Origin: Azorinus chamasolen
Taxonomy: Eukaryota; Mollusca; Bivalvia; Cardiida; Solecurtidae
Assembly (NCBI GenBank): GCA_963576725.1
Contig: OY755247.1
Coordinates: 12,652,534 to 12,716,533 of the forward strand
Length of the DNA: 64,000 nt
Reading direction: 5' to 3'
Of the stretch, positions 4,701 to 63,769 are shown piece by piece (position 1 is the first letter of the stretch; every line of letters begins with the position of its first letter). Made by a program: the position numbers and the translations under genes. The notes beneath the pieces are model-generated. The model did no database searches. It was not told the DNA's origin and worked only from the letters and a program-made list of their open reading frames with translations.

Positions 4701-7700
4701 GTGCTGTAGAAAGTAGCTGGATGTATTTAATTATAAATTCAAAAGCAACCAGAGCAGACCCTGATCAGATTGCTTCTACAGGAGCCATCTGATCTGGGTT
4801 TACTCTGTTTGCAAATGCTTGAAAAGGCATTTAATGAAGGAAAGGGTTAAATGAAACATTTCAGCATGGATCAAAATTTACTTGCATTATTTACCCTACT
4901 GTCCATTTCAATTTACTTTGTCACTGAATTTGAATCGAGAATTTTGTTCATTTCTTACGGGATCGAGATCAAATTTAAACCACTTGTGTCATCGTTTTTC
5001 AGGAACTCTGTGTCCCGAGTTTCCCTTGAATCCATCTTTAAATAAAGATTTCATGCATAAAAACAATGTTTTCCCATTACGTTCATTTCAAATTGCAAAT
5101 GGCGGACGATTGGCGTCGAGTGGAACATTTGAATTTAACTACGGGTAATTAACTAATTATAGCTCTTAAAAGTTGATGTCATACACGAAATTACGTCTTT
5201 TATTTCATATCAGTATGCAATTCACCCCTCATGATCCATACATACGGCAGCCATTTGCAAAGAAACAACTGATCAAATTAGCATGTAGAAAATGCATCAA
5301 ATGAAGTATATTTAAGGTCAGTCTGACTCGAAATGAAAAAAATATCGACTAAAATTCAGTGACAAAGTAAATTGAAATGGACAGTAGGTATTCTGAAAAC
5401 TTCAGCAAATATTCCAGACTGAGATTAAATGGCAATGAAGGAGCATTATGAATAGGTTCAGCTTTATTTGTTTAATTTAAATTAAACAAAGGTGAGCTCT
5501 GAATTAAATGGTCCGCAGATGCCAGGGGATCGTGTCTGAATATTTCGGGTAAATATGGTTTTGCACTTGCAGGTCATCAGTTCTCAGGATCTGAAAAGAT
5601 GCAGGTTGAGCCTTCAATTGGTCGCCGCAAGTAAGTTTATCAGTTTATCCTAATAAAGTGCATATTTATGCAAAAACCAGACAATATCAAATTATCAATA
5701 TTGTGTCAATTTTTGCAGTTGTATCCAGAGCTTCAGATAAGATGCGTAATTAAAAACATTTTGAAGAATAACTCCTTTATTTCTCCACCAAACCCTTTAA
5801 TGTGACCACTCTTTCTTCTTTCCGTTACTTCACTCCATCATTAATGATGATTATGTGAAGGGAAGATTCTAAAGAATGGTCACAGTATAGGGTTTGGTGG
5901 AGAAATTGCGATTTTAGGATTTGGTTACACTTTTATCTGTAGCTCTTGTGTATCTATATTATAGATGATTCCAAGAAAACTGCTTGTGCTCACAGATATC
6001 TGTTGATAATTTCCACAACAAATTGCAGGCTAGACTGCACAAATTTACGGATTTGTATTTGTTTCTATGAATGTGTAGATATTGGAAGGGGGGTATTAGC
6101 CTCCAAACTTAAGTTACAATTAAATTTTGTTATCAATAAAAAAATTCTTGCCTTATAATCATCCTCAAATTATATGTGACAGATAATATAGCAACTTACT
6201 TGAATACTTCTTGGCCACTGTTCCATGCTTCCATATCTGAATGTAAATATCAACAAGTTGAAAAAGTAAATCTTGGTCTGTTCCATGCCCGTATCAGGAT
6301 CAGCACATTTAGATATTGGTCTGATCAAATCACTGGTTCAGTACTGATGTTTAAATTTGTATTCATTTTTTTTAGGCGCACAAACAAAATCCAGATTAGG
6401 AATTTGCCAGCGTACATTGCAAAGGATGAAATAGAAGCACAAGTAGGACCAGTGCAGAAGTTTGAACATGGTAAGCAAACTGGTCTGCTTTACTAGCAGA
6501 CTAGCAGTAGTTTGCCTTCTATCAATGCTGTTCATTGAATGTTCAACCAGTTACTTCATTAAACACCTTTTCACACTTGCAAACAGTCGACCTAGATCAG
6601 ATGGTTAGGAGCCATCTGACCAGGGTCTGCTCTGTTTGCCTATTAAATAATATGGATATGATTCTACAGGTTCTGCAATGTTGAAAATATTGCTTTTTAA
6701 TAAGACATCATAAATTTTTAATAAGACGTCTTGCATGATCTGAAACTCCATTGAGGGACTAAGTTGTTGTGTCACCTGCCGAGAGGCAGTGCATCACTTA
6801 GGGATCACTTTTCCGTCGTCTGTCTGTCTGTCACACTTTCTTTTTCTTGGCTGTCATTTCTAAACTAATCATTATAGAGCTTTCAAATTTCACATGTGTC
6901 TTCCTCTCATTGAGGACCATTGATGTAACTAAGGTCCATCACTCTGCATGCAATACTTTTTTAGTTAATTATATTCCCCTTTGTTCTGATTTTCGTCCCA
7001 CTTTCTGTTTTTGGCTGTCATTTCTAAACTAATCATTATACAGCTTTCAAATTTCACATGTGGCTTCCTCTCATTTAGGACCATTGATATAACTAAGGTC
7101 CATCACTCTGCATGCAATACTTATTTAGTTGTTCTCCTTTGTTCTGATTTTGGCACTCCAACATATTAACAGTTTTTGTGTCAGATGCGAGCAGGTGATA
7201 CATGTGTTCTTCCAAACACTCTTGTTATCTGATTTTCACCAAACTTGAGAAAATGTGATAATACCATTCCACATAGTTTATTCAGCATTCAAAGGTTTAA
7301 GAAGGAATGCATGTTCTTGTACTCTTTCTTGTTTTGCAGTTGGTTCTGAGGGACTTGTTTATGCTACCTTTGAAAGCCCAGAGTCAGCATTGCAGTAAGT
7401 TTTATTGTATTATTTACCAAGTCTAATCAAAGAATTAATTCATGAAATAAAAGTTTTTGTGTAATACTAAATGTAATGTCATAGTTGAACTGATTTAAGC
7501 TGATAAGAGCACTTGTGTGTAGGTTTTGAACTTGGGGATCCAATATAACACTCACTAAATCACTAAGGAAATAATTATTATCACTAAAACTCACCAGTAC
7601 TACTTGGGTTTTAGCCAGTAACAATTTTTGGCACTTGCATTTTTTTTGTAAGTGGCAAAAAAGGATAAATTTTATCCCTGCAAATATCTCCAATCTTAGC

Positions 7701-10700
7701 CCTTCCCAATCTTTGTCTGGACAAAGTATTTCCCTTGAAAAACAAAACAAACAAATAAAAGTGCAATGTGAACATTAAAATTCACTGTTTCTGTCTGTCC
7801 AGCTGTCTGTTTTCTTCAGGATTGCCACACATTGGGGAAATTGAAATTTGTTCAAGGTCAGGGAATTTGGAGAATTGTCAGTGAAATTTGAAAATACATG
7901 TAAATACAGGGAATCATCTGGGAATTTTGAAGAAAAAAAGTAGGGATATTAACAATTAATCAGTTAACCATTATAACCTCAGTTAACCGATTTCGCTTTT
8001 CCTTCAAAAGGTTAACCTGAAAAGATAAAATTTGGAATTTCGATAAAAATAAGTTTGCTGCACGTAAGTAGCATACGACATCTCCACCGTTCCCTTTAAC
8101 TGCCTTGACATTAGGGGCGACTATTGAGGCCAAAATGACTATCACGATACTATTACGATAGTCAAAATACTATCACGATACTATTGCAATTGTTCAGAAA
8201 CTATTGCAATACTATCACGATAGTTTTTTCTCAAACTTATAACTGTAGGATAGTGGATCAAAATAACTAGATCAGCATTTTTAGCTCACCTGAGCTGGAG
8301 GCTCAGGATGAGCTATTGTGATCACGATCCGTCCCGCTTCCGTCCACATTTTCAAACAACATCTCCTCTGAAACCGCTGACCCAATTTTAACCAAATTTT
8401 GTCAGAAGCATCAGTGGCTATGGGGAACGAAATGTTGTTCACATTATGACCCCTGGACCAAAAATGGCCCCGCCCAAGGGCTTATCAGTTTTTCATGCGA
8501 AAATCTTTCAAAATCATCTTCTCTGAAACTGTAAGGCCTAGACCTTTGATATTTGGTTGTAGCATGGTCTAATGGTCCTCTACAAAGATTGTTCAAATTA
8601 TGACACCCGGGCAAAAAATGGCCGCGCCCAAGGGCTTATCAATTTTTCATAAGTATGAAAATCTTTAAAAATCTTCTGAAACTGCAAGGCCTAGACCTTT
8701 GATGTTTGGTATGTAACATGATCTATTGGTCCTCTACGAATATGTAGCTTTGGCTTGTGGTCCTCTGCCAAGAATGTTCAACTTATGACTCTGACCTCTG
8801 GGCGAAACTTGGCCCTGCCTTGGGGCTTATCAGTTTTTCATGGGAAAAATATAAAATATTATTTTTCTCTGAAATCATAAGGCTTAGACCTTTAATTAAT
8901 GGCATACTGCTTTGCCGTGTGGTTCTCTACTAAGATTGTACAAATGATGACTTCTTGGTCAAAAATGGCCTTGCCCCTGGGGTTATCTCGGGTGAGCACT
9001 TCAGGGTCTCCTGGCCCTCTTGTTTTAGATCATCTGAGCCCAAGGCTCAGATGAGCTATTGTGACCGTGATCCGTCCATCATCTGTCCACATTTTCAAAC
9101 GACATCTCTGAAACTGCTGACCCGATTTTAACCAAATTTTGTCAGAAGCATCAGTGGGGACGAAATATTGTTCACATTATGACCCCCGGACCAAAAATGG
9201 CCCTGCCCAAGATCTTTAAAAATCCCCGGGACTTATCAGTTTTCATAGGAAAATCTTTAAAAATCTTCTCTGAAACTGTAAGGCCAAAAGCTTTGATGTT
9301 TGGTATGTAGCATGATCTAACGGTCCACTACAAAGATTGTTCAAATTATGACCCCCGGACCAAAAATGGCCCTGTCCCGGGGCTTACCAGTTTTTCATAA
9401 GATTTTTTTTTAAATTCTTCTGATGAATGTGTAAGGCCTAGAACTTTTATATTTGGTATGTAGCATGAGACTAATGGTCCTCTACAAATATTGTTCAAAT
9501 TATGACCCCTGGGTTGAAAATGGCCCGTCCCAGGGCTTTTCAGTTTTTCATAGGAAAATCTTTAAAAGTCTGATGAAACTAAAAAGCCCAGACCTTTTAT
9601 GTTTGGTAGACATCATTATTTGATAGTCCCCCAGGCCAAAATGGCCTCTCCCCAGGGTTCATCAATTTTATATAGACTTGTATAAGAAAACCTATTAAGA
9701 TCTTTTTTCTGAAACCATAAGGCCAATACCTTTAATATTTGACATGCAGCTTAACCATATAGTCCTCTATCAAGATTGTACAAATTATGACCCGTTTGTT
9801 AAAAATGGCCCCGCCCTGGGGCATATTAATTTTTCATAGACTTACTAATGCAGAATGTTCAACTTACCACCCGACCCCCGGGAGAAACTTTGCCCTGCCA
9901 TTTGGCTTATCAGTTTTCCATGGGGAAAATAATTATAAAATATTATTTTTCTCTGAAATCATAAGGCTTAGACCTTTAATTAATGGCATGCAGCTTTGCC
10001 TTATGGTTCTCTACCAAGGTTGTATAAATGATGACCTTTGGGTAAAAACTGGCCCCATCCCAAGGGTTATCTTAGGTGAGCGCTTCTTGTTTTTTCAAAG
10101 TTTCAATGTAATGAATCAATTGTAGTTTATTCGTAGGGCCGTCATCGTAACTTGCGATATCGGTGAATCGTCGATTTCAAAGTTCCGATGATATATCGAT
10201 ACAGAATTTCCAAGTATCGATACATTTTTAATGAAAAAACTAGAATAAACCCTGACTCAATGTGTTTTGCGTCGTATCCATCTGTTTGTTTATTATTGCT
10301 CCAGTTCACTTTTCATTTACGGTGTTTGACGACATTAAAAACTAAGGCTTGGGTTTGCACTTAATCCGGGTCAGTTTCGTGAGATGAATACAGTATGCAG
10401 CCCATATAAAAGCTCATGTGTTACTCGGACTGATCTTAAGAAAACCTTGTATTCACTTAAATAAAGTCAAATGGATCAAAACGTGATGAAAGTAACGCTA
10501 CATGAACATACATTATCGTAGAACCTGCAGTTTACACAGCATCGCGAACCTGCGTCAGTGAATTTACCCTTCCCCATTCCAAGCAACAACAACAACAACA
10601 ATGGCGACCAACGTTCCGGATTTGAGGAGTTTAGCTCAAAAACCTCGAAAAACGGAGTGACGTTTGAACAAAAGTCAACTTTCTGAAGTTCAATGATGAT

Positions 10701-13700
10701 TTGCATAAATCCAAAGTCATATGCAAACTCTGCAGAGTTGTCCTACTGTACAGCGGTAATAACACAAATATTCATTCGCATGTCAACAGAAATCATTGGT
10801 CAGTGAGTACAGTAACTGTTGAGTGCTTGAGGTTGCGAAGTAATTGTTTGCAATACCCTTATGGTTTATGCTGTTTTCATTTAAGGCAACAACTAATAGA
10901 TAAACTCCTCAAACTCCGGAATGGTTGATATAATCGATGCAGAGTAGACTCAATGTGAACTACCTGACCAATCTTGGAATTCTCTGTTCGACATGTCATT
11001 GAAATTAATATCTATAAGGAAAGGTTATAAGCTGTTATTTCCACATTACCTTGGTATTTTTGTTACAAGAATCAACTATTTATAACAAACTCAGGAAGAG
11101 CTTATCTTTTTATTTTATTCTAATGACATTTGCTAGGTGAAGCAGTTAATTCTACACGTTTTACCTGAGAATTTGTAGTGGTTTTGAGTTAATTCCCTTA
11201 AATAGTAAATCCAACCGATATATCGATATATCGTCGATATTTGAGTCATCGATGTATCGATACAGCGAGGCCAATCAATGACAGCCCTATTTATTCGATA
11301 TGTCATTTGTTTCAGAGCAGCAGAAAGACTTGATGGTGTAGACTTCAATGGCTCTGTCATTAAGGTAGGTTTTCATATACTGTACTGTTTGTATTATGGA
11401 TCTTGATATCTGGCTTTGTGCTGAACCCCCACCCCACCCCCGCATACTCGGATTCCTACCTTTTGCGCCTTTCTACGCCTTTGCAAACACAGTAGACCCA
11501 GATCAGACAGCTCATGTATGAGTCATCTACTCGATTTGCTTATGATATAATGCAGATATAATTCTACAGTTTCTGCCTTGGCCAATACTTCCTGTGTCCA
11601 TGTGCTTTCTTATTAATATTCATGATATTTATTTCCTTTATGAATATTCATGGTGTAAAAGGTTAAAAGGCAAAACTAAGAATTAAAATATGAAATTTGA
11701 AAGCTTGTACATATTGTAACTCCCTTGCACCCAGTTTGTGACTTTTTGATTGCCTATAAACAAACAATTTGGAACCATTTGAGATGGTGAGTAACTGTAT
11801 CTCTACACAATCCAACCTGTTTGATTCTCAAATCTTTCTTTAACCTATTCCCTCGTAGGCTATTTTTAGATCAACCTCTTTAAATAATTCTACCGAAAAC
11901 GGGCATTTACTAGAGAAAGAATTGTGTTGTTTGAAACCATAGAGCATATGCTCCTATGAAACAAACGCTCTTTTTATCACAATGGTTTCAAAAAGTGACT
12001 TTTACAGAGGCGTCAAAAGGTGTCAGTATGAGGGAATGGGTTGAGAACAACACGGGGAAGAAAAGAAAATGCTAAGAATTTGTAGAATATGAGAAATTAT
12101 CAAATATTCTCTGTATGTAGAACTTTTTCGTAAATGAAATTATTGCTTATATGCAGGCTGAGCTTGTTAGTAAGAGAGGGCCCCCAAGAGAGCAGACCAG
12201 GGGACCAGGACTAAGAGGACCACCCAACCCACCGAGTGGACCACCTGCTAACCCACAGGCCCCAGAAATTCCTCTAAGGTCAGTGAGTATATTGTGATTC
12301 CCGCCAGCCTTTTCACAGGGGTCAGGTCTTGAAAATTCTTTGCAAACACAATTTAAAACAAATATAACACACAATGTCATCAAACCTGGCATGCTTTGTC
12401 CAAATGCAGGGTGAGAAATTTCCAGATTTGATACTACAGTGGAGTTAAAATTCTGGAAATTTTCTTGTTTTTCAATCATTTGGTCATTTTCAAACCCTAG
12501 GAACAAGTGGTTTGAATTTTTACTTGCCCTGTGTCAAAATGTACTTGTCCTGGACAACGGGCAATTTAATTTGTTGTTGGATCATATAAGTAAGTAAATT
12601 GTTTATTACAGTGACATGCATTACAACAATACGTACATGTCTTGTTAATAGACGAATAAATTGAGCAACTTGGCATAGTGTAGTAATCATTTTGATAAAT
12701 ACCTTTAATTATGTATAGTAAATCCTCCAGACTTTTCAGAATTGCTTGTTTAATACTGTCACCTGTGACTAGCAGGAATATGTTTTACTAAGCACCTATC
12801 TTTAACCAGGACACTGCTGCTCGGCTTAGTGATGCTCTTGTTTTACATTACTATTTTGTCATTCTCGCTAAAAAAGGATCTCTTCTTTGACAGGATTGTC
12901 GTGGGGAGCGAGTTTGTTGGTGCTATCATTGGCAGAAGTGGTCAAACCATACAACAAATCACAGACAAGTGCAGGGCAAGGTAAGTTGATTACTTTTTTG
13001 ATTATTTTCTGAAATATTCAAATGTGTAATGCATATAATGTGTGTTGACTTGCACATTTAATTCGTGTTAATTTCATTAGTCAACTTATTATGTATATAG
13101 AAATTTTGTATTTTGACGTTTTGTTTAAGTAATAAAATGTCAATTTACTAAAACTATTGTTTTTATTTCCCCAAATAAAATTGTTCTGCCATAGATGGGG
13201 GTTTGTGAGAGTTTTGTGCAAAATTTGTTGAGGCTTTGTAATTATTCTTACTATTTTGGGAACCTGTGCACCTGTAATATGCTCGTCAAAAGATTGGTCA
13301 TATTATGTGAATATCAACTTGTTTGGATCGTTTGGCAAAACTTGAGTTTAAGTTGCTAACCAATTAATTATTGGGAATGTCTAAAAGTGTTTGATTTTCA
13401 ATTAATGTGTCAGGAGAAACGTAAGAATGTATATATGATGAAAATGGCAAATTTCAGACTAGAGTCTCTGATACCTGATGATTGTCATCTCTGACGAGTT
13501 TACTTGTAAGGTTTTGTTGCTGTGTGTTAGATGAAAATAGTCAAGCCTATTTAAGATGTCTTGTTATATTTCAGGGTGGATGTACATCGTTCTGATGCCA
13601 TGATGCCACCTCCAGAAACGGTAAGTAATATTTTTATGCCCCCTGATCTAAATCTGGGGGGGGGGGCATATTGTTTTTAGCTCATCTGTTTCGAAGAAAT

Positions 13701-16700
13701 CACATGCTATTGTCGTAACTCCCGGTCGTCGTCGTCAAAAATCTTAACATTGACCATAACTTCTTCAATTTTTCATTTTAAATACAACCTTCATTTTTAG
13801 CTCGTCTGTTTAGAAGAAATCACGAGCTATTGTCGTAACTCCGGCGTCTACGTCGTTGTCGTCCGAAATCTTAACATTGACCATAACTTCTTCAATTTTT
13901 CATTTACAACCTTCATTTTTGTTATGCATGTTCATCTTGACAATGACGACAGACAAGCGTTTGCACCCGCTTGCAGTGCTCTTGTTGGTATGCATGTTCA
14001 TCTTGACAAGGCTTATCCACACACACCAAAATGATAACAGACGAGCGTTCACACCCGCTTGTTTGATTCTCTAATCTTTCTTTAACCTCTTCCCTCGTAG
14101 GCTATTTTTAGATCCAACCTCTTTTAAATAATTCTACCGAAAACGGGCATTTACTAGAGAAAGAATTGTGTTGTTTGAAACCATTGTGTAAATAGAGCAT
14201 ATGCTCCTATGAAACAAATGCTCTTTTTATCACAATGGGTCGTCCGCTTGCGGTGCTCTTGTTGCCATGTCTGTCTGTTTGTCTGTCTGTCTGTTTGTTT
14301 GTCACCAACTTTTAACATTGGTCATAAGTTTTCAGGCAGTACAGATAGAGACTTGATATTTGGCATGCATATGTATCATAAAGCCGCACATTTTGAGGGG
14401 TGACGTCAAGGTCATCCTTCAAGGTCAAAGGTCAGCAACTTTAACATTGGGCATAACCAGACATGTTTACAATTACGTTTTAGGCGTAATTATTATGCTT
14501 TTCACCTCCAATTTACGCTATTATGGTCCCCGACATTAAATTACGCGTATTTGAAATTTTCAGCGCCATATTTTTTCCTTATCGCATGATATCGTATTTT
14601 CGGGGATTAATCGCCACATTTTCCCCCCTTGTTTCATCGTGGCGCCGGCTATGTAGTCCATACCAATTGTGCACATGTGTAATGGATGTATTTATTAAAT
14701 GGCAGAGCGGGACAAGCAGACGCCAGAATCGAGAACGAATAAACGATGTCATGAAACTAATGGCTCTTTTCCGAACGAACCAACGAATAAGAAAAAGATA
14801 TCAGTTGTGAAACAACGATATAAAGATGCTTATCATGAAGCATGGAAGTGCTTAGGACCGTCAGTCAAAGGAGACTCTTGCGTGATGTGCTCAGTTTGTA
14901 GGGCAGTTTGTGCGATAGAATTTTCATGTGCACACTGGACGATTTGACTGTACTTGTCATATAACTCAAAGTCGGTTTACGGACATTTGCCCCCCGGACT
15001 TGTGCCCCTATTTGGGCATGGGCGGACATGCTGAACTGTTATATTTTCGTTCGCAAATGATATGAGGTTTTCTAAAAATGTCCGCCCATGCCCAAATAGG
15101 GGGGCACAAGTCCGGGGGGCAAATGTCACACGGACAATTTTCACAGTAAAAAGGCTGTCAATATGATTTTGTCTCGGTATTACACTTGCCTACCCCTAGA
15201 TTACACTTAAATTGGAAGATGATTACACTTGCGCAAAACTGGGGGTAAACAGGTCTGCATAACTTTTGAATCAGTAGAGATAGAGACTTGATATTTGGCA
15301 TTCATGTATATCTCTTGAAGCTGTACATTTTCTGGGGTGACATGTCAATGTCAAGGTCATTCTTCAAGGACAAAGGCCAGATATATAGGTCAAATCACTT
15401 ATTTTCGAACCAATAGAGATAGAAACTTGATATTTGTCATGCTTGTGTATCTCATGATGCTGCACATTTTGAGGACTGACAAGTCAGTGTCATGGTCATC
15501 CTTCAAGATCAAAGGACAAATGTATAGATCAAAGTTCACATTCGCTATTATATTTGATTTAGTACAGATAGAGACCTGATATTAAAATGCATGTGTATCT
15601 CATGGAGCCACATGTATTGCGTGGTGACATGACATGTCAAGGTCATCCTTCAAGTTCAAAGCTCATATATAGGTCGGATCACCCAACTTCACATAGAGAC
15701 TTTACAATTGGCCAGCTAACCTATTGGGGTGGTGTGGGGGCATAGTGTAGTGTTTCACAAACACATCTTGTTATCATTGTACAACACTGATGGAGGTCGT
15801 AAACAACCAACGTTGGAAAGCAATATTTTACATGAAAAGTTAAACAGACTTCAATCCTCAGCAGGGTTTCCCTTGACCCCTTAAAAAATACCAATTTGAG
15901 GGTCTTCTTGACCCCCTCTCAATAAAGTAAAGAACAGACCATCTTAATTTTGAGGGTCATTTGTAAAATTTAAGGGACATTTCAATAGAAAAAGGGGGTC
16001 AGGGAAAACCCTGCCTCATGGCATTATGCTACAAAATTTGCATTGATGTAGGTTGGTATGGTCCATCAACCGGAGCTATAGGTGTGTTCAAATACTAAAA
16101 TCGTCATATCTTTCCCTTCTCATAAAAATGCATTATCCATCATTACAAGGCTGAACCTAGAGCTCTGAGACAGGAACAAGTGTAGTGAGGTTCAAAGAAG
16201 TCTTTGACCTAATTTTCGTTCTCCCTTATCATTATTCTCCCCAAGATTAAAAAAGTTTCTGTATACAGTAGAGTTGTAGCTTAATGCAGGTTGAAAGTAA
16301 TGCAGAAAGCTCCTATTTGAACTTTCAGGTTTATTTCCACACTGCATTAAGCAACCGCTTGTTTTTTAAATCTCTTAAAGTTTATTTTCAATAAATGAAT
16401 GGTTGCTTAAGCTTTTACTCCATGAATATTCATGTAAGAAGTAATGACATCAATATTTGTCACAATTGTGGACCCTTTTCAGGTCATTTCGATCAGAGGC
16501 AGTCCTGAAAATTGCTCCAATGCCTGCATTGAGATTGTAAAAATCATCCAATCAGAAGCTCAATCACTCATGAAAGGGTAAGTAGATGTTTGTTGTCTCT
16601 GTATTTTGGTCTCATCTCGCATTTTGTGTAAATTCATCAGTTCAAGTATTTTTTTTAGAAATGTATTTTCATCGCACAAGACCGCTCAAGTTCTGTGTAT

Positions 16701-19700
16701 CCTGCATCATATTCTCAACCCTTTTCCTGTTGAATTTTGTAAGAAATAATGATGTCATGAATATTTATTAGCTGATTTTTTTTTTTTATTTGCATATGTA
16801 CACATTAATATTTTATATTTGTAGAACTTAAGAGTTAGATATAATTTCACAAACCGAGCAGAACCTGATCAGACGGCTCCTAGGAGCCGTCTCATCTGGG
16901 TCTACTCTGTTTACATAGGCATTTAAACGTGATGGTATTTTTAGGATAGGGTTAAAAGTTGTTGCCTGTATTGACTCTATTACCTTTTTCGAAAAGAAAG
17001 GAATATAAAATTTTATTCAAACATTGGTATGGGAGAGGGAAAAACATGGAATGTTCTTAACCTTTAGCCTGTTTTGGGTGGATGAGTGATTACCTATGCA
17101 AAGAGTTTAGATCCTGATGAGACACCAAGTAACTCCATATTTAATTAGGATAGAAACTTTTTAACACCCTGATTGCATTTCGGTACACATGCTGAATATT
17201 AGAGGTGTAACTATAGGTTGACCTATCGAGATATCCCAATAGCTGAGTTTCCAATAGTAATAGTTTGATAGTAATTCTGACAATCGAGAACTATCTCCAA
17301 TAGTTAATTCAACAATCGATAGTTTTCTTAAGTACAGTGGAAACACATCAATTCTTATTGATTATATGAAAAGAAAACAAATGTCTCTAATTTTAATATC
17401 TACCCTGTTTGTAAAGATTTGAAAACATGTCTGTTTATAAATATCATTCAAAGGACTTCATGACATGCATATGTATTTGTGTTGCTTTGTATGCTGTTTT
17501 TATAATTATAGAGACAAAAAGGCTGATCTTAAGTGCTGATCTAGTCAGTTTGATTCACTACCCTTATAAGTTTGAGAAGAAAACTCGTGATAGTCATTTT
17601 GGCCTCAATAACTACTGCTTATAGTTTGAACTTTGAAAATGTAACTGGTGTAAAGTTGTGTAAAAAGAAATTTTTCAGCAAGCTAGTGGTTTAAATTTTT
17701 TCGAAGCAGATTCAATTTGGAATAATCTTACAACTTGCATTGTACAAGTACATGATGTTCTTGCATCTTCAATTAGTTATTCCCCCGGCCGCGACAGACC
17801 AAAAGTCGTTAAAAGTTGGTACTAGTAGCTCCCTTGTCTGCGCTCGACATTAAAAGGTGTAGTTCTAGGACTGGTCGGCTCGGTGTCAGGATAATGTGAC
17901 TGTGTGGGATGCCTATGCCATGTGCCCGCGGCAGGGGTATTTCAGTGAGGCAGCACTATAACTTGTCTCATGCGTGTACCGTCTGCATATAACTGAAATA
18001 TTGTTGGTCGGACGTTAAACCCAACTCACTCACTCAATTAGTTATTCCCTTCGTGCTTGTGACACTTAAACTGGACTACCTTCATTTTATAATTAACTCT
18101 GCATGTTAAAAAAAATCTGCTCAATTGTCGTCAGCAACCTGTTAAAAACCATTCATTTTCTTTCCGACTTTTTTTCAGAAGTTTGGTCTGAATGACAACC
18201 AGATTTTATATCAGTTCAGGCCCCATGTTTTGCGAGGTCTGATCTGGATCCAAACTGTTTGCATAGGTCACACAAATGGTGGGAGAATCCACGGCTAGCA
18301 TGCAAAGAGTTAATCTTTACAAATTTGATATATTTGAAGGCATACATTTCTAAGGCTTTACTCCATAAAAATGCCTTTGCCTTTAAAAACAGAATAGACC
18401 CTGATCAGACGACTCCTGTAGGAACTTTCTGATCGGGGTCTGCTCTGTTTACTAATGAAATTATAGAGAGATCTGATTCTTAAGTTTCTGTTATGGTCAA
18501 ATTTTCTCTGTTCATGTGTCTGTATAAAGTACTATGCAATTGATATTCATGATGTCATTATTTCTTAATATGAATATTCATGGGGTAAAGGGTTAAGAGC
18601 ATTCATTACTTTGTGATGATTGAGAGTTATTGCATTTGAAGTCAAGTCATTGTTAGCTCGTCTGTTTCGAAGAAAGGTTGAGCTATTGTGGTCGCTGGGT
18701 CATAGTTGATGAGACTTCTAGCTATTGTGATCACTCGGTCGGCAGCGTGCAAAAACTTTACTCGAAAAGTATAGGAGGTCTCAAAACGAAACTTAGGTAG
18801 GTAAAGTGGGTAGATCTCATTGTGAAGAGAACCATAACTCATGATTTCAAAATTTCTGATACTTCTAGCCCTTTTTTATCAAAAAGTGTTAAATTATCTG
18901 GACAAGCACCAAATCCGATGAGCTTTGGCACCACACTCGGCTCTTGTTGCTACAACTATTCATCTTCAAAACAAAACTTTACTGACAAGATTCAAATCCT
19001 GCGCATGATTTATCTTTTTGCAATTCCATACTGCTATGTAGGGCTGACTATTGGGGCCAGTTTTGACTATTGCAATACTATTTCTATTGCTGAAAGTACT
19101 ATTGCGATACTATTGCTATTGCTGGAAACTATTGCAATACTATTGCAATAGTTATTGCCAAGATTTGAAAACTTGTAAATGCAAATTTGCACAGTGTAAG
19201 ATATAACTTTGCTGTAAATACTTACTAAAAAATGTTTGTGGAAATTATTTAAAATGAATTGGGCCTTGCCACTTGTGTTTTACAGCTTTTGTTTTTAACA
19301 AACTCGACCTCTGAGATGGTCGACGCCATCTTGAAAACACAATGCCAATTGTATGAAAGGACTATCGAAACTATCGATAGTCAGAGCAACTATCGCAATA
19401 GTCTATCGTCAATTGGAAATAACTATCGATAGTGTAAATGGGATAGAGAACTATCACGATAGTTCGATAGTTTGATGTATTGTTACACCACTACTGCTAT
19501 GGGTGGATGGCCGAATTTGAAAGTGCCTTCTTGCACCCCCATAAACATTTAAATGGTACAGCCATCAGCCTTTATCCCTAGTTACAGCCCTTAAAATGTT
19601 TGTTTTCATGCTGAGACAGGCTGATGTGCTCTTGTTTATTCAGTGTCATTAAACTGTTGCAGATTGACAATAATAGACAAGGACATTAACATGCAGACAA

Positions 19701-25700: not shown

Positions 25701-26973
25701 TTATCTTTGAATGGATTTCAAAATAACCTGGCACAAATATTCATCACAAGAAGACGATGTGTTGCGTTCAACTTTCTGGTCTATGGGTCAGAGGTCAAGG
25801 TCACAGGGTACAATTTTTGGGGGCATTTGTCACGTGACTGACAGTAAATGTGTAAGGTGGAACATTGTAGCCATTTTCGAAACTCAAGAAACATCTATCG
25901 AATTCCATTAGCAAACAGCAGACCCTGATTAGACAGCTCCTATTGGCCTTTCCACCAATGTTGCGTTTTTTTGTCGAGCCCGTTTGTGATGAGCTCTACA
26001 GTCGCCACAATGTCTGTGCATGGTGGGTGTATGTTAGTGCGGCCGTCCAATCTTGTCCGGGCTCTAACTTAGAACTCCATGGATGGATTGTGAAATGACT
26101 GGGCATAAATGTTCCTCTAGAAGGTACGGTGTGTTGCATGCAAAAACCAGGTCAGTAGCTGAAAGGTCAAGGTTACCCTTGGAGGTTAAGTCACGATTTC
26201 ACAAACACATTCTAGTTTACTTTTGACCTTGACTTTTGAACTTTGACTTAATTTTTGAAACTCTTAACAAAAACCTTTAACATTGGCTTTTGTTTTAAAA
26301 CTGTCAAACAAATCGTATGAAACTTGGCTACAAATTGACCAAGAGTGGTTTTTTGTTTTTTACATAGTCGTGCCCCTTTATGGACCCAGTTGAACAGACA
26401 GGTGTTGGCGCCCGCATGCGGTGCTCTTGTAATAGATTAACACACATCTTGCTACTTGTCATGAGCTGTGGATTGAAATAAAAATACCGGTATGTCTAAT
26501 AATAGGTCCATATTAGAAAGTGTTTGTAGATAATTGTGTTTTCTTTTTACAGCCAACAAGATCCATTGCATTTTAGTGACAGGGTAGTCACTATTACTGG
26601 TCCATTAGAAAATCTGAAGAAGGGAGAGTCCCTGCTCAGTGAAAAGATTAGAAAGTGCAATGAACTAGACAAACAGAACTATGGAGTAAGTTCCTTGGGT
26701 TTTATTATTAGGGCCCCACACCTTGGTGTCACAGTGGGTTTTACTGTACTGTTTACTGACATGCATGTTGTCCAAGTGACATCTGTTTACTATGTGATAA
26801 TGACATTGCCTCCCTTTATTATGTTGAGTAGTAACTTTCAAATTACTAAGAAAAAAATCCTTATTGCTCCACAACAAAGGATTTGAGTAGAAACTTACAG
26901 ATTAGTAAAGCAAATTTTTACATTCAATTTTTATGCCCCCATAGACATAGTCGGGGGGCATATTGTTTTTGCC

Positions 26974-27005
<32 letters not shown>

Positions 27006-51845: not shown

Positions 51846-51892
51846 TTATGTCTCCCCCATTTATGGGGAGATATATTGTTTTTGCCAGAGTT

Positions 51893-51926
<34 letters not shown>

Positions 51927-53134
51927 CCGTCACAAACTTGTGTCGCGCGTATCTCTGAAACCAGTTGGGCTAGAGTCACCAAACTTCACAGGAATGTTCA
52001 CCAGCATGAGTTGTTGTGCACCTAGGGTTTTTGAATTGTCTCTTCCTGATATTTTTGGAGTTATTGCCCCTGATGACTTAAAATTAGAAAAACTTTGTGT
52101 CGCGCGTATCTCTGAAACCGCTAGTACTAGAGTCACCAAACTTCACAGGAATGTTCACCAGCATGAGTTGTTGTGCACCTATGGTTTTTGAATTATCTCC
52201 CCCTGATAATTCTTGAGTTATTGCCCCTGATATGAATACTTAAATTTATACAAACTTTGTGTCGTGCGTATCTCTGAAACCAGTAGGGCTAGAGTCACCA
52301 AACTTCACAGGATTGTTCACAAGCATGAGTTGTTTTTGAATTGTCTCCCCCTGTTAACTTTGGAGTTACTGCCCCTGATGACTTAAAATTAGACAAACTT
52401 TACTTAGTGTCGTGCATATCTCTGAAACCACTAGGGCTAGTCACCAAACTTCACAGGAATGTCGACCAGCATGAGTTGTTGTACAACTGGGATTTTTGAA
52501 TTGTCTTCCCTTGATAACTTTGGAGTTATTGCCCCTGATATGATTACTTAAAATTAGAGAAACTTTGTGTCATGCATATCTTTAAAACCACTAGGGCTAG
52601 AGTTACCAAACTTCACAGGAATGTTCACCAGCATGAGTTGTTGTGCACCTGGGTTTTTTAAATTGTCTCCCCCTGATAATTCTTGAGTTACTGCCCCTGA
52701 TATGTTAACTTAAAATTAGAGAAACTTTGTGCAGCACGTATCTCTGAAACCAGTAGGGCTAGAGTCACCAAACTTCACAGGAATGTTCACCAGCATAAGT
52801 TGTTGTGCATCTGGGTTTTTTAATTGTCTCCCCCTGATAACTTTGGAGTTACTGCCCCTTATGACTTAAATAAGAGAAACTTTACTTTGTGTCACATGTA
52901 TCTCTGAAACCACTAATACTAGAGTCACCAAACTTCACAAGAATGTTGACTAGCATGTGTTTTTGTGTACCTGGGGCTTTTGAATTGTCTCCCCTGACAA
53001 TGTTGGAGTTATTGCCCCTGATGACTTAAACATTAGACCCTGATAAGTTTGGAGTTACAGACATTACACTTGTGTATTGGAAAGAGGATGGGAGGGGGAG
53101 ACATCTGTTTTTGTGACAAAAACAAACCTCTAGT
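51846..53134. mobile_element. E3 element (TATGTCTCCCCC box) with ~165-bp array
   Basis: TATGTCTCCCCC and TGGGGAGATATATTG at the 5' end. Seven or so units (GTATCTCTGAAACC, AGAGTCACCAAACTTCACAG, GCATGAGTTGTTG, TTATTGCCCCTGA). GGGGGAGACAT, the hairpin TTTTTGT-g-ACAAAAA and CCTCTAGTT at the 3' end. Confidence 0.8.
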
Positions 53135-53426
53135 TGTAATACGTATTCTGAGGAGACAACCACATATTGATTTTGTGAGCAGTGTCCGCCTGTCCTATTT
53201 TAATTTTTCCGCACGGTTTCTCAAAAATCTTTTTTTTGATTTTCATGAATAGGATTGATCGGCACCATGCATGGTTGTGCATATCTTATTCCTGTTCCAG
53301 TTTGATGATTTTCTGCATAATTATGGGACTTTGAAATTTTTACATGGAATATTTTGTCCAGGCCGGGGCGGATGGTGTGGGAGAGACATCAGTGTTTGTG
53401 TTGAAAACAATTCTAGGTATATTATG

Positions 53427-55532
53427 AGTGTGTCTCCCCCAATTTATGGGGAGACATTGTTTTTGCCAGAGTTGTCTGTCTGTCCGTCCGTCTGGTCACA
53501 AACTTGTGTCACGAGTATCTCTGAAACCGGTACTAGATTCACCAAACTTCACAGGAATGTTGACCAGCATGAGTTGATGTGCACCTGGTTTTTTAATTGT
53601 TTCCCCCTGATAATTATGGAGTTATTGCCCCTGATAACTTAAAATTAGAGAAACTTTGTGTTATGCGTATCTCTGTAACCGCTAGGGCTAGAGTCACCAA
53701 ACTTCACAGGAATGTTAACCAACATGAGTTGTGCACCTGTGGTTTTTATACGCCCGTTTGAAAACACGGGACGTATTATGGAATGGCGCTGTCTGTCCGT
53801 CTGGCAGTCTGTCCGTCTGTAACATCTCTAACTCAAGTTCCGCTTGGTGGATCCTTCTCAAATTTAACCACAATGTTTATCTAGACATGCTACAGTTGCC
53901 TGCCAAGTCCCGGTTTGTTTATCCAAGGTCAAGGTCACACAATTGGACTTAGAATTTGCGTTTAGCAAAAATGTTAACCGGTCTGTCTGTCTGTAACATC
54001 TCTAACTCAAGTTCCGCTCGGTGGATCCTTCCCATTTAACCACAATGTTTACCTAGACCTGCTACAGTAGCCTGTCAAGTCCCGGCTCGTTTATCCAAGG
54101 TCAAGGTCGCTTAATTGGACTTATAATTTGCGTTTAGCATTTGCGTTAAGCAAAAATGTTAACCTCAATTTATGTGGAACAAGTCCACTTATTTACATAA
54201 CACTTTGTGATAAAGCTTTGAAACTTGGAACACTTGTTCACCGTCACAACCTTCACCTGTAGGCAAGAGAAAATAACTCTGTCAAGCATTTTGACCGAAT
54301 TATGCCCCTTTTTAACTTAGAATTTTTGGTTAAGGCTTTGTTAAAGTCCATTTATTTACATAACCCTTTGAGATAAAGCTTTTAAACTTGGAACACTTGT
54401 TCACCAGCACAATCTTCACCTGTAGACAAGAGTACATAACTCTGTCAAGCATTTTGACAGAATCATTCCCCTTTTTAACTTAGAATTTTTGGTTAAGGCT
54501 TTGTTAAAGTACATTTATTTACATAACCCTTTGAGATAAAGCTTTTAACCTTGGAACACTTGTTCACCATCACAAGCTTTACCTGTAGGCAAGAGTACAT
54601 AACTCTGTCCAACATTTTGACAGAATTATGCCCCTTTTAACTTAGAAATTTTGGTTACGGTTTTGGTTAAAGTCCACTTATTTACATAACCTTTTTAGAT
54701 TAAGCTTTTAAACTTGGAACACTTGTTCACCATCACAAGCTTCACCTGTAGGCAAGAGTACATAACTCTGTCTAACATTTTGACATAAGTATGCCCCCTT
54801 TTAACTTGGAATTTTTGGTTAAGGTTTTAGTTAAAGTCCACTTATTTACATAATCCTTTCAGATAAAACTTTTAAACTTGAAACATTTTTTCACCACCAG
54901 AAGCTTCATCTTCATCTCAAGCATTTAAATTTTAGACACAATTATGGCACTTTTTAATTTAGAATTTTTGGTTACGGATTTTTGTTAAAGTATGCCTATT
55001 TACAACCTTGAAACTTGGTCGCGAAATTGGACTTAGAATTTGAATTTAGCAAATACGTTAACCCCAGTTTATGTTGAACAAAACCTCGAAGGGCGTATAT
55101 TGTGCCCACTGGCACTCTTGTTCAATTATCTCCCCCTGATAATTGTTGAGTTATTGCCCCTGATATGATAACTTGAAATTAGAGAAACATTGTGTTGCGC
55201 ATATCTGAAACCAGTTAGGCTAGAGTCGCCAAACTTCACCAGCACTAGTTGTGCACCTGGGTTTTTTGAATTGTCTCCCCCTGATAATTGTTGAGTTATT
55301 GCCCCTGATGACTTAAGATTAGAGAAAGTTTATTTGTGATGCATGTATCTCTGAAACCGCTCGGGCTAGAGTCGCCAAACTTCACAGGAATGTTGACCAG
55401 CACGAGTTGCGCACCTGGGGTTTTTGAATTGTCTCCCCCTGATAACTTTGGAGTTACAGACATTACACTTGTGTATTGGAAAGAGGATGAAAGGGGAAGA
55501 CATGTTTTTGTGACAAAAACATTAACCTCTAA
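53427..55532. mobile_element. E3 element split by an E4 element
   Basis: TGTCTCCCCCAATTTATGGG at the start. The same units as 51846. GGGGAAGACATG, TTTTTGT-g-ACAAAAA and CCTCTAATT at the end. E4 lies at 53743-55122. Confidence 0.8.
53743..55122. mobile_element. E4 element (TATACGCCCG box) nested in E3
   Basis: TATACGCCCGTTTG and ACGGGACGTATTA at the 5' end. About six units (CATTTTGACAGAATTATGCC, GATAAAGCTTTTAAACTTGG). AGGGCGTATATTG, the hairpin GTGCC-cact-GGCAC and TCTTGTT at the 3' end. Confidence 0.85.
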
Positions 55533-55661
55533 TTATTATTCTTCCGATTCTTCTTCCAGAGTGAACTTGCCCGAGACATTTCTCAGGAAGTAATTGTCTG
55601 ATCCTAATGAAACTTCACACAAAGGTTGCTAGTTATATGCAGATGTGCAGCCCACTTTTGA

Positions 55662-56380
55662 TTTTTATACCCTCCACTATGAAGTTTGGGGGGGGGGGGG
55701 TATACTGGAATCAGGTTGCCCGTCCGTCCCTCCGTCCGTGGACACAATTTTGTCCGGCCTTCTTTTTCTACAGTTTTGCTTCAATTTTGTTGAAAGTTCA
55801 TGTATAGCCATATGACCATATAAACCTGTGCACCGCATATTTCCATTATGATCTGGCCACTACTTCATGAGTTATCTCCCCTTTTTAGTCCCCTACCAAT
55901 GTTTTCCGGTTTTCTGGACTTTTTATGGAAGTGACTCGAGATATCAACTCTATATTTAGATTTGGGATTTTCCAGACTTTTTTTGGAAGTGGTTGCAGAT
56001 ATATTAACTTTATATTTGGCATAAAGCTAACTCTAGATGAATTACAGCTTAATTCCCAATCTCAGTCTGGTTGAATAATTTTTGACAGAGTTATGGCCCT
56101 TGAACTTTTTCAATTTTCCGGTCTTTCTTTGGAAGTGCTTAGAGATATTAACTTCATATTTGACATAGAGCTAAATCTAGATGAGGTACAGCTTAAGTTC
56201 AAATATGGGTCTGGTTGAATAATTTTTGTCAGAGTTATTGTCCTTGAACTTAATGTTTTTCTGAAAAGGTAGGTAGGTTTAGAACTTTGGATTTGACAAA
56301 AACCTCATGAAAGGGTATTGTTTCTCTGAATTATTCTTCATTTTTATTACATAAATTAGGTTGGGGCATGTATTGTTTTT
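55662..56380. mobile_element. Rolling-circle-like element, TATACCCTCCAC box, 3' end unclear
   Basis: TATACCCTCCACTATGAAG and a G run with GGTATACTGG at the 5' end. The body has two or three ~150-bp units (GATATTAACTTCATATTTG, GAGTTATGGCCCTTGAAC). Confidence 0.55.
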
Positions 56381-56448
56381 AAATCTCTTCATGTTTCTGT
56401 ATGTACATATGTTCAGATTGATGATAGGTGTTCTGACAAGCAGACAGG

Positions 56449-56451
56449 TGT

Positions 56452-56482
<31 letters not shown>

Positions 56483-56488
56483 GGGGGG
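56449..56488. repeat. (TG)n followed by poly-G
   Basis: About nine TG units run into a G tract of more than 20 nt. Confidence 0.95.
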
Positions 56489-57216
56489 TTATTCGTTAGC
56501 CTTTGGCTTACAGTTCTAGTTAAAAAAAAAAGCCATAGTAACCAAATGGTGGGTCTGATTGGTCAAAATTCAGATATTGTTTGATGTGGTTCAATATTGT
56601 TTGATTTTGATAAAAATTGGTATCGTCGGATATTTCAGTACTACGAATTGATTGGTATGAGTTTTGGGAGTATTGGTTGCCATGGTAACTGAATAGTGGG
56701 CTCTGATTGGTAGAAATTTAGATGTTGTTCGATGAAATTTAGACATTGTTCGATTTTGCAGAAAATTGGTATGTGGGGATATTTTAGTATTGCAAATTGA
56801 TTGGTAGGTGTTTCGAAAGTAATGGTAACCGAATAGTTGGCTCTGGTCGAGGTCTAGATATTGTTCGATTTTGCTTCAAATTGGTATGTAGGGGTATATG
56901 GGTACCCCAAACTCAAAGGTGTTTTGAAGATTTGGTTGCCATGGTAATGGTGTGGTGGCCTCTGATTGGTTACAATTTAGATTTACGATTTTGCTGAAAA
57001 TTCGTATGCTGAAAAATATGTATGTGGGTACGCCATTTGAATTAGATCTTGTTCTTTATATGTGCTAATTATGTTTCGGAAACAAAGTGGGGAGATGTAT
57101 TGTGTTTACTCCATTTCTTCATCTTATTCTTTCTTCTGATTGCTCTTCTGCCATGAAATTGTCTGACACATTCCTGGTTATGTGCAGATGTGCATCCCAA
57201 TTTTGTTTTTTGTTGA

Positions 57217-57457
57217 ATTTTATGCACCCCCCCCCCACCGGATCAAATCTAGTGGGGCATATTGTTTTTGCCCTGTCTGTTTGTTTGTTTGTCACCAACC
57301 TTAACATTGGTCATAACTTTTGAGCCAGTACAAATAGAGACTTGATATTTGGCATGCATCTCATAAAGCCGCACCTTTTGAGGGGCAACATGTCAAGATC
57401 ATCCCTCAGGGTCAAAGGTCATATCGGGGGCATAGTGTTTCACAAACACATCTTGTT
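57217..57457. mobile_element. E1 element, one-unit copy
   Basis: TATGCACCCCCC and TGGGGCATATTG at the 5' end, one unit, then GGGGGCATAGTG, GTGTTT-cac-AAACAC and ATCTTGTTT. Confidence 0.8.
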
Positions 57458-58320: not shown

Positions 58321-58440
58321 AACGATTGATAGGTGTTACTTAACGACTGATAGGTGTTACTTAACGATTGATAGGTGTTACTTAACGATTGATAGGTGTT
58401 ACTTAACGATTGATTACTTAACGATTGATAGGTGTTACCT
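58321..58440. repeat. 21-bp minisatellite
   Basis: Six copies of AACGATTGATAGGTGTTACTT, one with a 6-bp deletion, running straight into a MITE-A end. Confidence 0.9.
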
Positions 58441-58762
58441 AACCCTTCCCCTCATATAAACGCCTTTCAAATGTACAGTCGGCTGAGCGGTCCTTCGGAC
58501 TGAAAGTAGACCGTAACTAGGTACTTCACTTTACTTTACTTTTCACGCATTTGCAATCAGAGTAGACCCAGATCAGACGGCTCCTATAGGAGCCGTCTGA
58601 TCAGGGTTTGCTCTGTTTGCTAATGGAATTTGATAGATCTCTTTCTTTATTTTCTTAAATCGATACAATTTCCTACATCCGATATTTTTCTGTAACTATT
58701 TGCCCATGAATATTCAGTAGGTATTAAGATTGAGATTAAACATAGAACAGGGAAAGGATTAA
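58439..58762. repeat. MITE-A copy with a ~74-bp insertion
   Basis: CTAACCCTTCCCCTC start, GGAAAGGATTAA end. The core AGACCCAGATCAGACGGCTC is mirrored perfectly around CTATAGG. An insertion at 58468-58541 ends in an ACTTT repeat. Confidence 0.85.
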
Positions 58763-60271: not shown

Positions 60272-60422
60272 AATATTTTTTTATTTTTTATTATTTATTT
60301 TATATATATTTATTTCATTTTCCTGTGTATTCAGTACAACTCTCCGTGTAGTGTGCTTGGTTATAGCTGCAAGTCAAATGTGCCATCTCAAGGATAACCA
60401 CAAGGCACACATTCAGCATGAT

Positions 60423-60678
60423 TTAACCATTTCCCTCATATTTATAAAACGCGTTTTAACGCATTTGCAAACAGAGTAGACCCAGATCAGATGGCTCCTA
60501 GAGGAGCCATCTGATCAGGGTCTGCTCTGTTTGCTGATGGAATTTGAAAGATATTGTTTCTTTACTTTCTAAAATAGCTACAATGTTCCACCTTACATGT
60601 TGCGTTATAACTTTTTTGTTCATGAATATTCAGTAGGTATTGAAATTTGTAATAAACATAAAACTGGGAAAGGGTTTA
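60423..60678. repeat. MITE-A copy between the two tRNA-like sequences
   Basis: TTAACCATTTCCCTC, AGACCCAGATCAGATGGCTC core mirrored, CTGGGAAAGGGTTTA. Confidence 0.85.
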
Positions 60679-60810
60679 GAAAAAAGAAACCAAAGAAAAC
60701 AAATTATATACGCTCACTCCAAAAATTAAAAAAGGATACCCAACAAAAAATACGAAAACATAAAAAACTATTCCAAATATAAAACTACAAAAAATCAAGA
60801 CAGCATTTTT

Positions 60811-62007: not shown

Positions 62008-62023
62008 AATCTGTGCCGGTTGG

Positions 62024-62248
62024 TTAACCCTTCTTCCCTTACGTCTTTGCAAACAGAGTATACCCAGATCTGACGGCTCCTATAGGAGCCGTCTGGTCAG
62101 GTTCTGCTCTGTTTGCTTATAATATAGATATGATCGTACAGTTTCAGCTATCGCCAAAAATTGTGTGCATGTGCTATAATAATAACTGATGTAATACATA
62201 TTCAGTACGTTTACTTCTTACATGGATATTCATGGTGTACAGGGTTAA
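62024..62248. repeat. MITE-A copy, TTAA both ends
   Basis: TTAACCCTTCTTCCC, ACCCAGATCTGACGGCTCC core mirrored across TATA, TGTACAGGGTTAA. Confidence 0.9.
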
Positions 62249-62504
62249 TATTTGTAGGTGGTTGGGCACACCTATAGTTTCAGTTTGATATTCAAACGCA
62301 TGGTATTCTTCCTGTTGCTGGGCTCATTCTATGGGCGACGGACCTCTTCTGTCGTGTGGGTTTACAGTTTCAGATAACCAGAATGTTTAGCATTCCAATA
62401 CCGACATATAATTCCATCTTAGTGAATTAAGAATGAAAGTCTCGCCAAATATCGAACTCGTATTAAACAAAATTAAATCGAGCAAGCATTTTTAGCGTAG
62501 TCAG

Positions 62505-63769
62505 TCGTCAACAATTTTAACATTCAAAAATCATCTCCTCTGAAACTACAGGGTTCTCAGCTTTCATCTTTGGCACATATCATCATCTATAGATCCTCTA
62601 CAAAGGTTATATAAATTATGCCCCTGGGGTCAAAATTGGCCCCGCCCCAGGGGTGCCATGTTTTCAAATACATTGTAGAAATATATAGTGAAAACTTTGA
62701 AAATCGTCTCCTCTTAAATTGGAAGGTTTGTGACTTTCATATTTGTCACATAGCATCATGTTCAGGTCCTCTACAAAAGTTATATAAATTATGACCCTGG
62801 GTTCAAAATTGGCCCGCCCCAGACGTGGGCATTTTTCAACTACATTTTAGAAACAAATAGAGCAATCTTTGAAAATCTTTTTCTCTGAAACTAGAAGACT
62901 CTCAGCTTTCATATTTGGCACAGAGCATCATGTTCAGGTCCTCTACAAAAAGTTATATAAATTATGACCCTGTGGTCAAAATTGACCCCGCCCCAGGGGT
63001 GGGCAGTTTTCAATAGAAACATATAGAGAAAACTTTGAAAATCTTCTCCTCTGAAACTGGAAGGAGCCCAGCTTTCATATTTGGCACAAAGCATCATGTT
63101 CAGGTCCTCTACAACAGTTATATAAATTATGACCCTGGGGTCAAAATATGGCCCCACCCCAGGGTTTGGCAGTTTTCAATAGAAACATACAGAGAAAACT
63201 TTGAAAATCTTCTCCTCTGAAACTGGAAGGTTCTCAGCTTTCATATTTGGCACAAAGCATCATGTTCAGCTCCTCTACAGAAGTTAATTAAATTATGGTC
63301 CTGGGGTTAAAATTGGCTCCACCCAGGGGTAGCCAGTTTTCAGAAGAAACATATAGCGAAAACATTGAAAATCTTCTCCTCTGAAACTAGAAGGTTCTCA
63401 GATTTCATATTTGGCACATGGCATCATGTTCAGGTCCTCTACAAAAGTTAAAACCCAACTCACTCACTCAACAAAAGGTATATAAATTTTGCCCCTTGGG
63501 TCAAAATTGGCCCGGTCCCAGCGGTGCCTTGTTTTCTACAGAAACATATAGTAAAACTTTGAATATCTTCTCCTCTGCAACTGGAAGGTTCTCAGCTTCT
63601 ATATTTGGCACATGGCACCATGTTCAGATCCTCTACAAAAGTTATATAAATTATGCCCTAGGGGTCAAAATTGGCACCGGACCTGGCTGGTTTTCTATAG
63701 AAATATAAAGTGAAAATCTTCTCCTCTGATGATTGTCTGGTGAGCGATATCATTCTGGTCCTCTTGTTT
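62505..63769. mobile_element. H-like rolling-circle element with ~165-bp array, 5' end unclear
   Basis: About eight units (CTTCTCCTCTGAAACTGGAA, TTTCATATTTGGCACA, GCATCATGTTCAGGTCCTC, GGGGTCAAAATTGGCCCC). Ends TGGTGAGCGATATC and GGTCCTCTTGTTTT, as in the H family. Confidence 0.7.
63449..63470 (+). mobile_element. 22-bp SINE 3'-tail insertion
   Basis: Only TAAAACCCAACTCACTCACT and the last tail bases of the SINE are present, inserted in an array unit between ACAAAAGT and ACAAAAGG (duplicated target). Other units read ACAAAAGTTATATAAATT without it. Confidence 0.8.

Follow-up and report, generated by a model that had tools for sequence, protein, structure and literature searches.

The window that we analysed is a 64-kb stretch of contig OY755247.1 from the bivalve Azorinus chamasolen (assembly of 1.72 Gb in 137 contigs, labelled C1, C7, C14 and so on, with C1–C19 appearing to be the large ones and the window on C13). 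Our data indicate, with a probability that we put at about 85%, that it carries several families of HINEs, non-autonomous Helentron-type rolling-circle transposons, and that Rep-helicase Helentrons in the same genome move them in trans. By reading and end scans we curated 18 elements in 10 families across the window; they were picked partly for their matching ends, and the curation was not blind. The non-autonomous Helentron-type identity proposed in an earlier note on this DNA holds, as the elements share an end plan, the three empty sites show insertion at T-runs without duplication and the genome also contains Rep-bearing elements built on this plan. The plan, read 5' to 3', consists of a 5' box, its near inverse, a far inverse, a palindrome and CTTGTT or CTAGTT. 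New here is the one-genome link, by both ends, of a Rep-bearing Helentron lineage (lineage I) with small relatives, together with a second lineage (lineage II) that has the same plan and another box.

A profile search with PF14214 (Helitron-type Rep) gave 109 matches in the host genome, none in the window and none in 14 control genomes. Open frames of at least 1,600 amino acids surround 26 of the 109. Helitron_like_N and PIF1 were found in one protein in all five open reading frames (ORFs) tested, and comparison of one Rep-helicase ORF with solved structures gave matches to PIF1 helicases and, for its helicase part, to Helraiser. RGSPHxH, i.e. Rep motif 2 with the serine described as marking Helentrons (Thomas 2014, PMC4067079), is present in each of the 10 ORFs from the ten loci taken first. 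Five of five Rep-helicase ORFs tested also contain DUF6570, and three of them (L017, L019, L027) have an N-terminal match to PF04843 (Herpes_teg_N).

We inspected the sequence downstream of 32 Rep loci (10 in 20-kb stretches, 2 over 6 kb and 20 over 1.6 kb). At 8 of these the homology between near-identical copies ends 0–2 bases from the terminal motif, which defines the 3' ends of lineage I (...CGGGCGTATAATGCCCTGCCTCGCGGTGCTCTTGTT, three copies, 99.8–100% identical over ~480 bp), lineage II (...GCGGTGGGGGATATAGCTGTCCTTTGGACTGCCTTGTT, three copies, 94.3–99.5%) and lineage III (...CCGGTGGGGGACTCATGTCTTGCATAGCAATACAACATGCCCTTGTT, two copies, 96.8%). The locus at C14:68206777 has a single-copy 3' end candidate, and no copy-boundary 3' end was established at the other 23; L033, L034 and L051 are alike across all 1.6 kb, with no end there. 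The 5' ends, each from two copies with different flanks, are TATACGCCC[CC]CGAAGGGTCGTATTATG for lineage I and TATCCCCCACCGCATAGCGGAGGGGGGTTATA for lineage II, and in both lineages a GTCY microsatellite comes next; the copy tested of each then has 166- or 169-bp monomers. No 5' end was found for the lineage III copy on contig C4. The boxes differ, TATACGCCCG in lineage I and TATCCCCCACCGC in lineage II, and each matches its own far box over 13 nt, a length reached by random genomic pairs at a rate of 1.5e-4 for lineage I and of 5e-5 to 1e-4 for lineage II (5e-5 being the floor of the test). In the second lineage I copy, which has the CC insertion, the match is 10 nt (random rate 1.3e-3). Because these ends were set by homology boundaries, they support the end plan free of any selection for matching boxes.

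The ends of lineage I also lead to elements with no Rep match. When its last 102 bp were used as a query, 40 of 758 candidates were scored and 41 places listed; the match spans at least 50 bp at 98–100% identity in 22 of these and only the last 37–48 bp in 19. For 3 of the 22 good ends listed, a Rep match precedes the end by 4.4 kb; the other 19 have no Rep within 100 kb, judged against the 104 Rep places typed. With the lineage I 5' end as query there were 777 candidates, and 37 of the 40 places listed start at query positions 3–7 (T-run 7–11); for lineage II, 40 places were listed of 1,101 candidates, with 34 starting at 12–18 (T-run from 14). Candidates in these end queries are not confirmed copies. 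Pairing lineage I ends by place and strand gave two Rep-bearing copies, of 12,542 and 19,464 bp, and two elements with no Rep match, 2,538 bp at C7:61114439-61116976 and 1,633 bp at C85:38036-39668. The longer Rep-bearing copy presumably holds an insertion; its middle, at L031, did not match L029. The two small relatives, known from their ends, have 50–102 bp in common with lineage I at each end, at 98–100% identity.

The earlier note had called for a search for a Rep-helicase element with the ends of the window families. Such a search succeeds for the plan, which is present on Rep-bearing lineages I and II, but for the box only in family C. Element C1 of the window is identical to lineage I over the 10 bp of the box (TATACGCCCG), 14 with the T-run, and over 9 bp on the 3' side; the published same-family rule is at least 11 identical bp of the subterminal inverted repeat (subTIR) (Thomas 2014, PMC4067079). 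Family C has lineage I's box, but by eye it looks like another subfamily.

The features read in the window are as follows.

6770-7226, + strand: F, box TGTCACCTGC, near inverse imperfect, far inverse GCAGGTGA, hairpin GTGTT/AACAC, end CTCTTGTT.
8282-9024, + strand: E1, box TAGCTCACCTGAGC, near inverse GCTCAGGATGAGCTA, far inverse CTCGGGTGAGC, end CTTGTT.
9026-10091, + strand: E2, TAGATCATCTGAGCC/GGCTCAGATGAGCTA, 3' palindrome lost; directly adjoins E1, head to tail.
13635-15772, + strand: A1, box TATGCCCC, near inverse GGGGGGCATA, far inverse GGGGGCATA, hairpin GTGTTT/AAACAC, end CTTGTT; G elements nested inside.
13798-13986, + strand: G1, TAGCTCGTCTGTTT ... GACAGACAAG ... CTTGTT; nested in A1.
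19915-20634, + strand: B4, degraded B3-type copy, approximate start, end CTAGTT.
25607-25850, + strand: I, a fragment with an H/A-like 5' end TATGCCCCAAAGGCGGGCATA and a degraded 3' end.
25973-26430, + strand: J, a weak candidate found by eye, end GGTGCTCTTGTA.
26932-27333, + strand: A2, complete TATGCCCC-family element of 402 bp, with the exact plan TATGCCCCC / GGGGGGCATA / GGGGGCATA / GTGTTT-AAACAC / CTTGTT.
27507-29179, + strand: B1, box TATACCCCC, near and far inverses both GGGGGTATA, hairpin ATGTTT/AAACAT, end CTTGTT; 145-bp monomers.
29449-30620, + strand: B2, TATACCCCAACCACC ... GGTTGGTGGGGTAT ... CTAGTT; G2 nested inside.
29652-29852, + strand: G2, TAGCTCGTCTGTTT ... AACAGACGAG, hairpin GCACC/GGTGC, end CTTGTT; nested in B2.
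33899-37905, + strand: E3, TAGCTCACCAGAGCAC ... CTCAGGTGAGC, hairpin AGGGCC/GGCCCT, end CTTGTT; H nested inside.
34266-36468, + strand: H, TATGCCCCCAAAG ... CTTTGGGGGCAT, hairpin GTCAC/GTGAC, end CTTGTT; inserted in E3.
40835-41563, + strand: A3, diverged member of the TATGCCCC family.
51847-53135, + strand: D1, box TATGTCTCCCCC, near inverse GGGGAGATATA, far inverse GGGGGAGACAT, hairpin TGTTTTTG/CAAAAACA, end CTAGTT.
53424-55533, + strand: D2, TATGTCTCCCC family, approximate start, end CTAATT; C1 nested inside.
53747-55122, + strand: C1, box TATACGCCCG, near inverse CGGGACGTA, far inverse GGGCGTATA, hairpin GTGCC/GGCAC, end CTTGTT; inserted in D2.
55666-56521, + strand: B3, TATACCCTCCAC ... 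hairpin AGCC/GGCT, end CTAGTT; G-run degraded.
57221-57457, + strand: A4, box TATGCACCCC, far inverse GGGGGCATA, hairpin GTGTTT/AAACAC, end CTTGTT.
62480-63768, + strand: N, E-type, 5' end not clear, far box TCTGGTGAGC, end CTTGTT.

All six boxes and all four hairpins named in the earlier note were located in the window. Its single end architecture across families is real in the curated elements, with exceptions: the near inverse of F is imperfect, E2 lacks the palindrome, D2 ends in CTAATT, and boxes or ends are degenerate in B3, B4 and fragment I. Ten family ends have a 3' palindrome with a perfect stem of at least 5. Sites of the form CT[AT]GTT or CTTGTA with a nearby perfect hairpin, sorted by eye, number 15 on the plus strand, 10 of them family ends, and 6 on the minus strand, none of them a family end. 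Copies outside the window retain the ends as well: B1 has two copies elsewhere in the genome with both ends kept, a shorter F-family copy has both ends (e9 19257-19469), and the 3' end of A2 occurs at 40 or more genomic places. Exact scans of viral and bacterial sequences for the family A 3' end gave 0 and 0.

The boxes had also been said to co-vary within each family, and swapping ends between families does abolish the match in the curated elements. With I, J and N left out and 10 family representatives compared, the summed box/far-inverse score was 86 versus a permuted mean of 51.4 (maximum 76; p = 5e-5, 20,000 permutations), and the box/near-inverse score 71 versus 46.6 (maximum 66; p = 5e-5). 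The score of an element against its own far end was at least 6 in 14 of 18, the between-family mean being 4.8; E2, A3, B3 and A4 score 4–5, and the starts of A3, A4 and B3 had been set 3 bases late. Since the elements were selected partly by matching ends, these permutation tests overstate the case. A selection-free scan for an exact 8-mer, its near and far inverses, a hairpin and CT[AT]GT, with 30 shuffles as control, gave 3 hits on the plus strand and 0 on the minus strand against a shuffle mean of 0.4, which is weak alone, as 2 of the 30 shuffles also reach 3.

The central parts of the elements show that "unrelated-looking", as the families had been described, was partly wrong. Of 12 central arrays tested, 11 (B1, B2, B3, C1, D1, E1, E3, H, N and lineages I and II) have a monomer period of 144–169 bp or its double (308–315), with none in A3, and weak similarity at z >4 links four pairs of monomers from outside family E (B1–H, C1–B3, C1–lineage II and lineage I–II). 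The 9-mer TCAAGGTCA, which we take to be a nuclear-receptor monomer site, occurs 43 times in the window on both strands, 42 of them within families A, B1, H, C1, I and J, and 10 times in each of two autonomous stretches (L029:948-2000 and L056:1411-2500).

Empty sites in related sequence were available for three insertions: C1 in D2, compared with a D repeat unit next to it; H in E3, compared with an E-type paralogue; and one D copy, inserted in just one of two near-identical Rep loci. All three lie at a T-run or TT, and none has a target duplication, so that the fixed-length duplications which the earlier note had named as evidence against a Helentron-type origin are absent at these sites. 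For C1 and the D copy, a single base differs beside the insertion. A fourth nested insertion, G2 in B2, yielded no empty site.

For the way in which the elements move we propose a model. Rep probably nicks after the 3' palindrome, at CTTGTT|TT. While an element is integrated, its 5' box would pair with the near inverse; in a head-to-tail circle it would pair with the far inverse, and the junction would become one hairpin that contains the palindrome and keeps the joint in a loop. On this model the elements have to preserve pairing and not a fixed sequence, so that box sequences drift between families while the copies co-vary, and it is possible, since pairing persists through changes in sequence, that box matching matters more than box sequence. 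More tentatively, and as one possibility, the three boxes may act as a two-state DNA switch, with the 5' box closed by the near inverse after insertion and an origin-like, two-storey hairpin presenting CTTGTT|TT in the excised circle. Rep would then respond to structure and not to box sequence, box families could diverge and become more numerous, and new non-autonomous families could arise by swapping of end modules. Modelled folding of the head-to-tail junction, in which far inverse, palindrome, CTTGTT|TAT and 5' box form a single hairpin, gave a sum of -144.3 kcal/mol for own pairs versus -88.1 for swapped pairs (p = 5e-5, 11 end sets), with 8 of the 11 own pairs better than every swap.

Several observations weigh against the reading of these elements as HINEs mobilised by resident Helentrons. 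Our searches turned up no autonomous partner for A, B, D, E, F, G or H that carries the ends of these window families, and no convincing matching box pair was seen by eye around the Rep ORF in ten 20-kb loci. In lineages I–III the Rep is known from the PF14214 match alone. The sole 5'-type end upstream of a lineage III copy (TTAGGGCCTGCATT) mismatches the 3' box GGTGGGGGACT. The C-terminal endonuclease signal is weak: at the two loci tested, ORFs that overlap the helicase ORF at its end scored 24.3 and 19.2 bits for Exo_endo_phos, both below the curated cut-off of 24.5. The own junction pairs of A, B and B2 (3 of 11) are not better than all swaps, and the head-to-tail circle itself is something that we infer.

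Among the alternatives, it is unlikely that one promiscuous Rep-helicase, or a few, moves all the families by recognising matched boxes and a palindrome of whatever sequence, which is what the earlier note had favoured. A single plan with two terminal motifs over 10 families and co-varying boxes would suit such an enzyme, as would the 19 listed lineage I matches confined to the last 37–48 bp, a pattern suggestive of a short end module on otherwise different elements. However, the genome holds many Rep matches, each resolved lineage has its own box, and the two paired relatives of lineage I match it over 50–102 bp at each end. With so many Reps, a box of its own in each resolved lineage and long ends shared with small relatives, family-specific partners fit better, and most likely each HINE family is mobilised by autonomous elements with its own ends. 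It also seems rather improbable that box co-variation reflects only the clonality of each family, with pairing not needed at present. Copying alone keeps three boxes alike within a family, and old degraded copies (B4, I, E2) are present. Yet the high copy identity within lineages I, II and III, which in lineage I is recent, speaks against this, as do compensating arm changes between different family E copies, whose relatedness was left unweighted. The 5' hairpins of 11 family E copies gave a sum of -138.2 with their own arms versus a permuted mean of -113.8 (p = 3e-4), some permutations falling below the observed value. Cut-and-paste miniature inverted-repeat transposable elements (MITEs) with degenerate inverted repeats and a DDE transposase, suggested by short non-coding elements with inverted repeats near both ends and by the MITE-like repeats also present in the window, are very improbable given a far inverse lying tens of bases inside and followed by the palindrome and CTTGTT, three duplication-free empty sites (families C, D and H) and Rep-bearing elements with the same end plan.

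Some candidates and neighbouring features deserve brief record. Boxes flanking Rep ORFs in the ten 20-kb loci were rejected as chance-like 9-mer pairs, with the whole plan in none (by eye). The Rep ORF at C1:75330436 is followed at 3 kb by a family E 3' end, which was also rejected as an autonomous end, the upstream sequence resembling the interior of an E element by eye. The Rep at C14:68206777 is flanked by an E-type pair in opposite orientation; as the left part of this pair matches HINE arrays, it was not retained. The Rep copies at C1:72745482 and C7:95499751 are 98% alike in the ORF region, and their homology stops in tandem repeats and at TTCAG|ATG, a point which resembles a splice acceptor and not a transposon end. 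The Rep at C2:89482411 (L035) is followed by a G-type 3' end, which is a lead only. Another kind of 5' end, TTAGGGCC(C)TGCATT ... GAGCC(C/T)TATAGGAAT, occurs at window ~38741-38791 and L055:3142, also upstream of a lineage III Rep; it is possibly another family. The E1/E2 junction lies at 9006-9050, the E2 palindrome having been lost between two CTT repeats. By eye there are many repeats that resemble TTAA-target MITEs, with a core that is palindromic and ends like TTAACCCTTTCCC (e.g. 16720-16965, 58440-58760 and 60420-60690). The window is AT-rich and by eye contains exons resembling an IGF2BP-type RNA-binding gene. All 18 curated elements (6770-63768) are on the plus strand, in the orientation of the apparent host gene, and the window end scans found no minus-strand element. 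Genome-wide, family A 3' ends lie on both strands (23 plus and 17 minus among 40 matches listed), so the bias seems local.

The end plan itself is already published, for 11 oyster HINEs (Vojvoda Zeljko 2020, PMC7492417), DINE-1 and fungal Helitron2, and rolling-circle elements are given as 4–5% of the Mercenaria genome (PMC8905726). The Cg_HINE elements of Crassostrea gigas (PMC7492417) resemble ours in the succession of 5' subTIR, complementary inverted repeat, GTCY-type microsatellite, tandem repeats, 3' subTIR and palindrome, as well as in element-specific box changes, T-rich insertion and the presence of 11 elements in one genome. They differ in sequence and host, and the ten autonomous elements of that study could not be related to its HINEs, whereas here lineage I ties Rep-bearing to non-autonomous elements. 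Helentrons, HINEs and DINE-1 (Thomas 2014, PMC4067079; Yang and Barbash 2008, PMC2374699) are similar in subTIRs, 3' palindrome, TT insertion, the 5'-near inverted repeat of DINE-1, autonomous partners with near-identical ends and stem sequences that vary between species; they are unlike ours in box sequences and in the CTTGTT/CTAGTT end, and their endonuclease is not clearly seen here. FoHeli Helitron2 of Fusarium (PMC5148889) has a 5' hairpin (FoHeli1 and 2) with an arm recurring inverted near the 3' end and a box that differs by subgroup, and experimental evidence there suggests joined ends, but its ends are ATTTT or CTCCTGT, with another target site and a fungal host. Bivalve Pearl elements, re-categorised as non-autonomous Helentrons (PMC7492417), are alike by description in their ~160-bp central repeats. 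In the parts of the literature covered by our search (including PMC8905726, PMC10294476 and PMC11136912), we found no report of a bivalve HINE tied to an autonomous Helentron.

Satellite-carrying HINEs abound in the oyster genome, and the 2020 study left it unsettled what moves them. Here small relatives have both ends in common with Rep-bearing lineage I, and lineage II shows the plan with another box. It can now be tested directly if every box family has a Rep of its own, and why the end box is present in three pairing copies.

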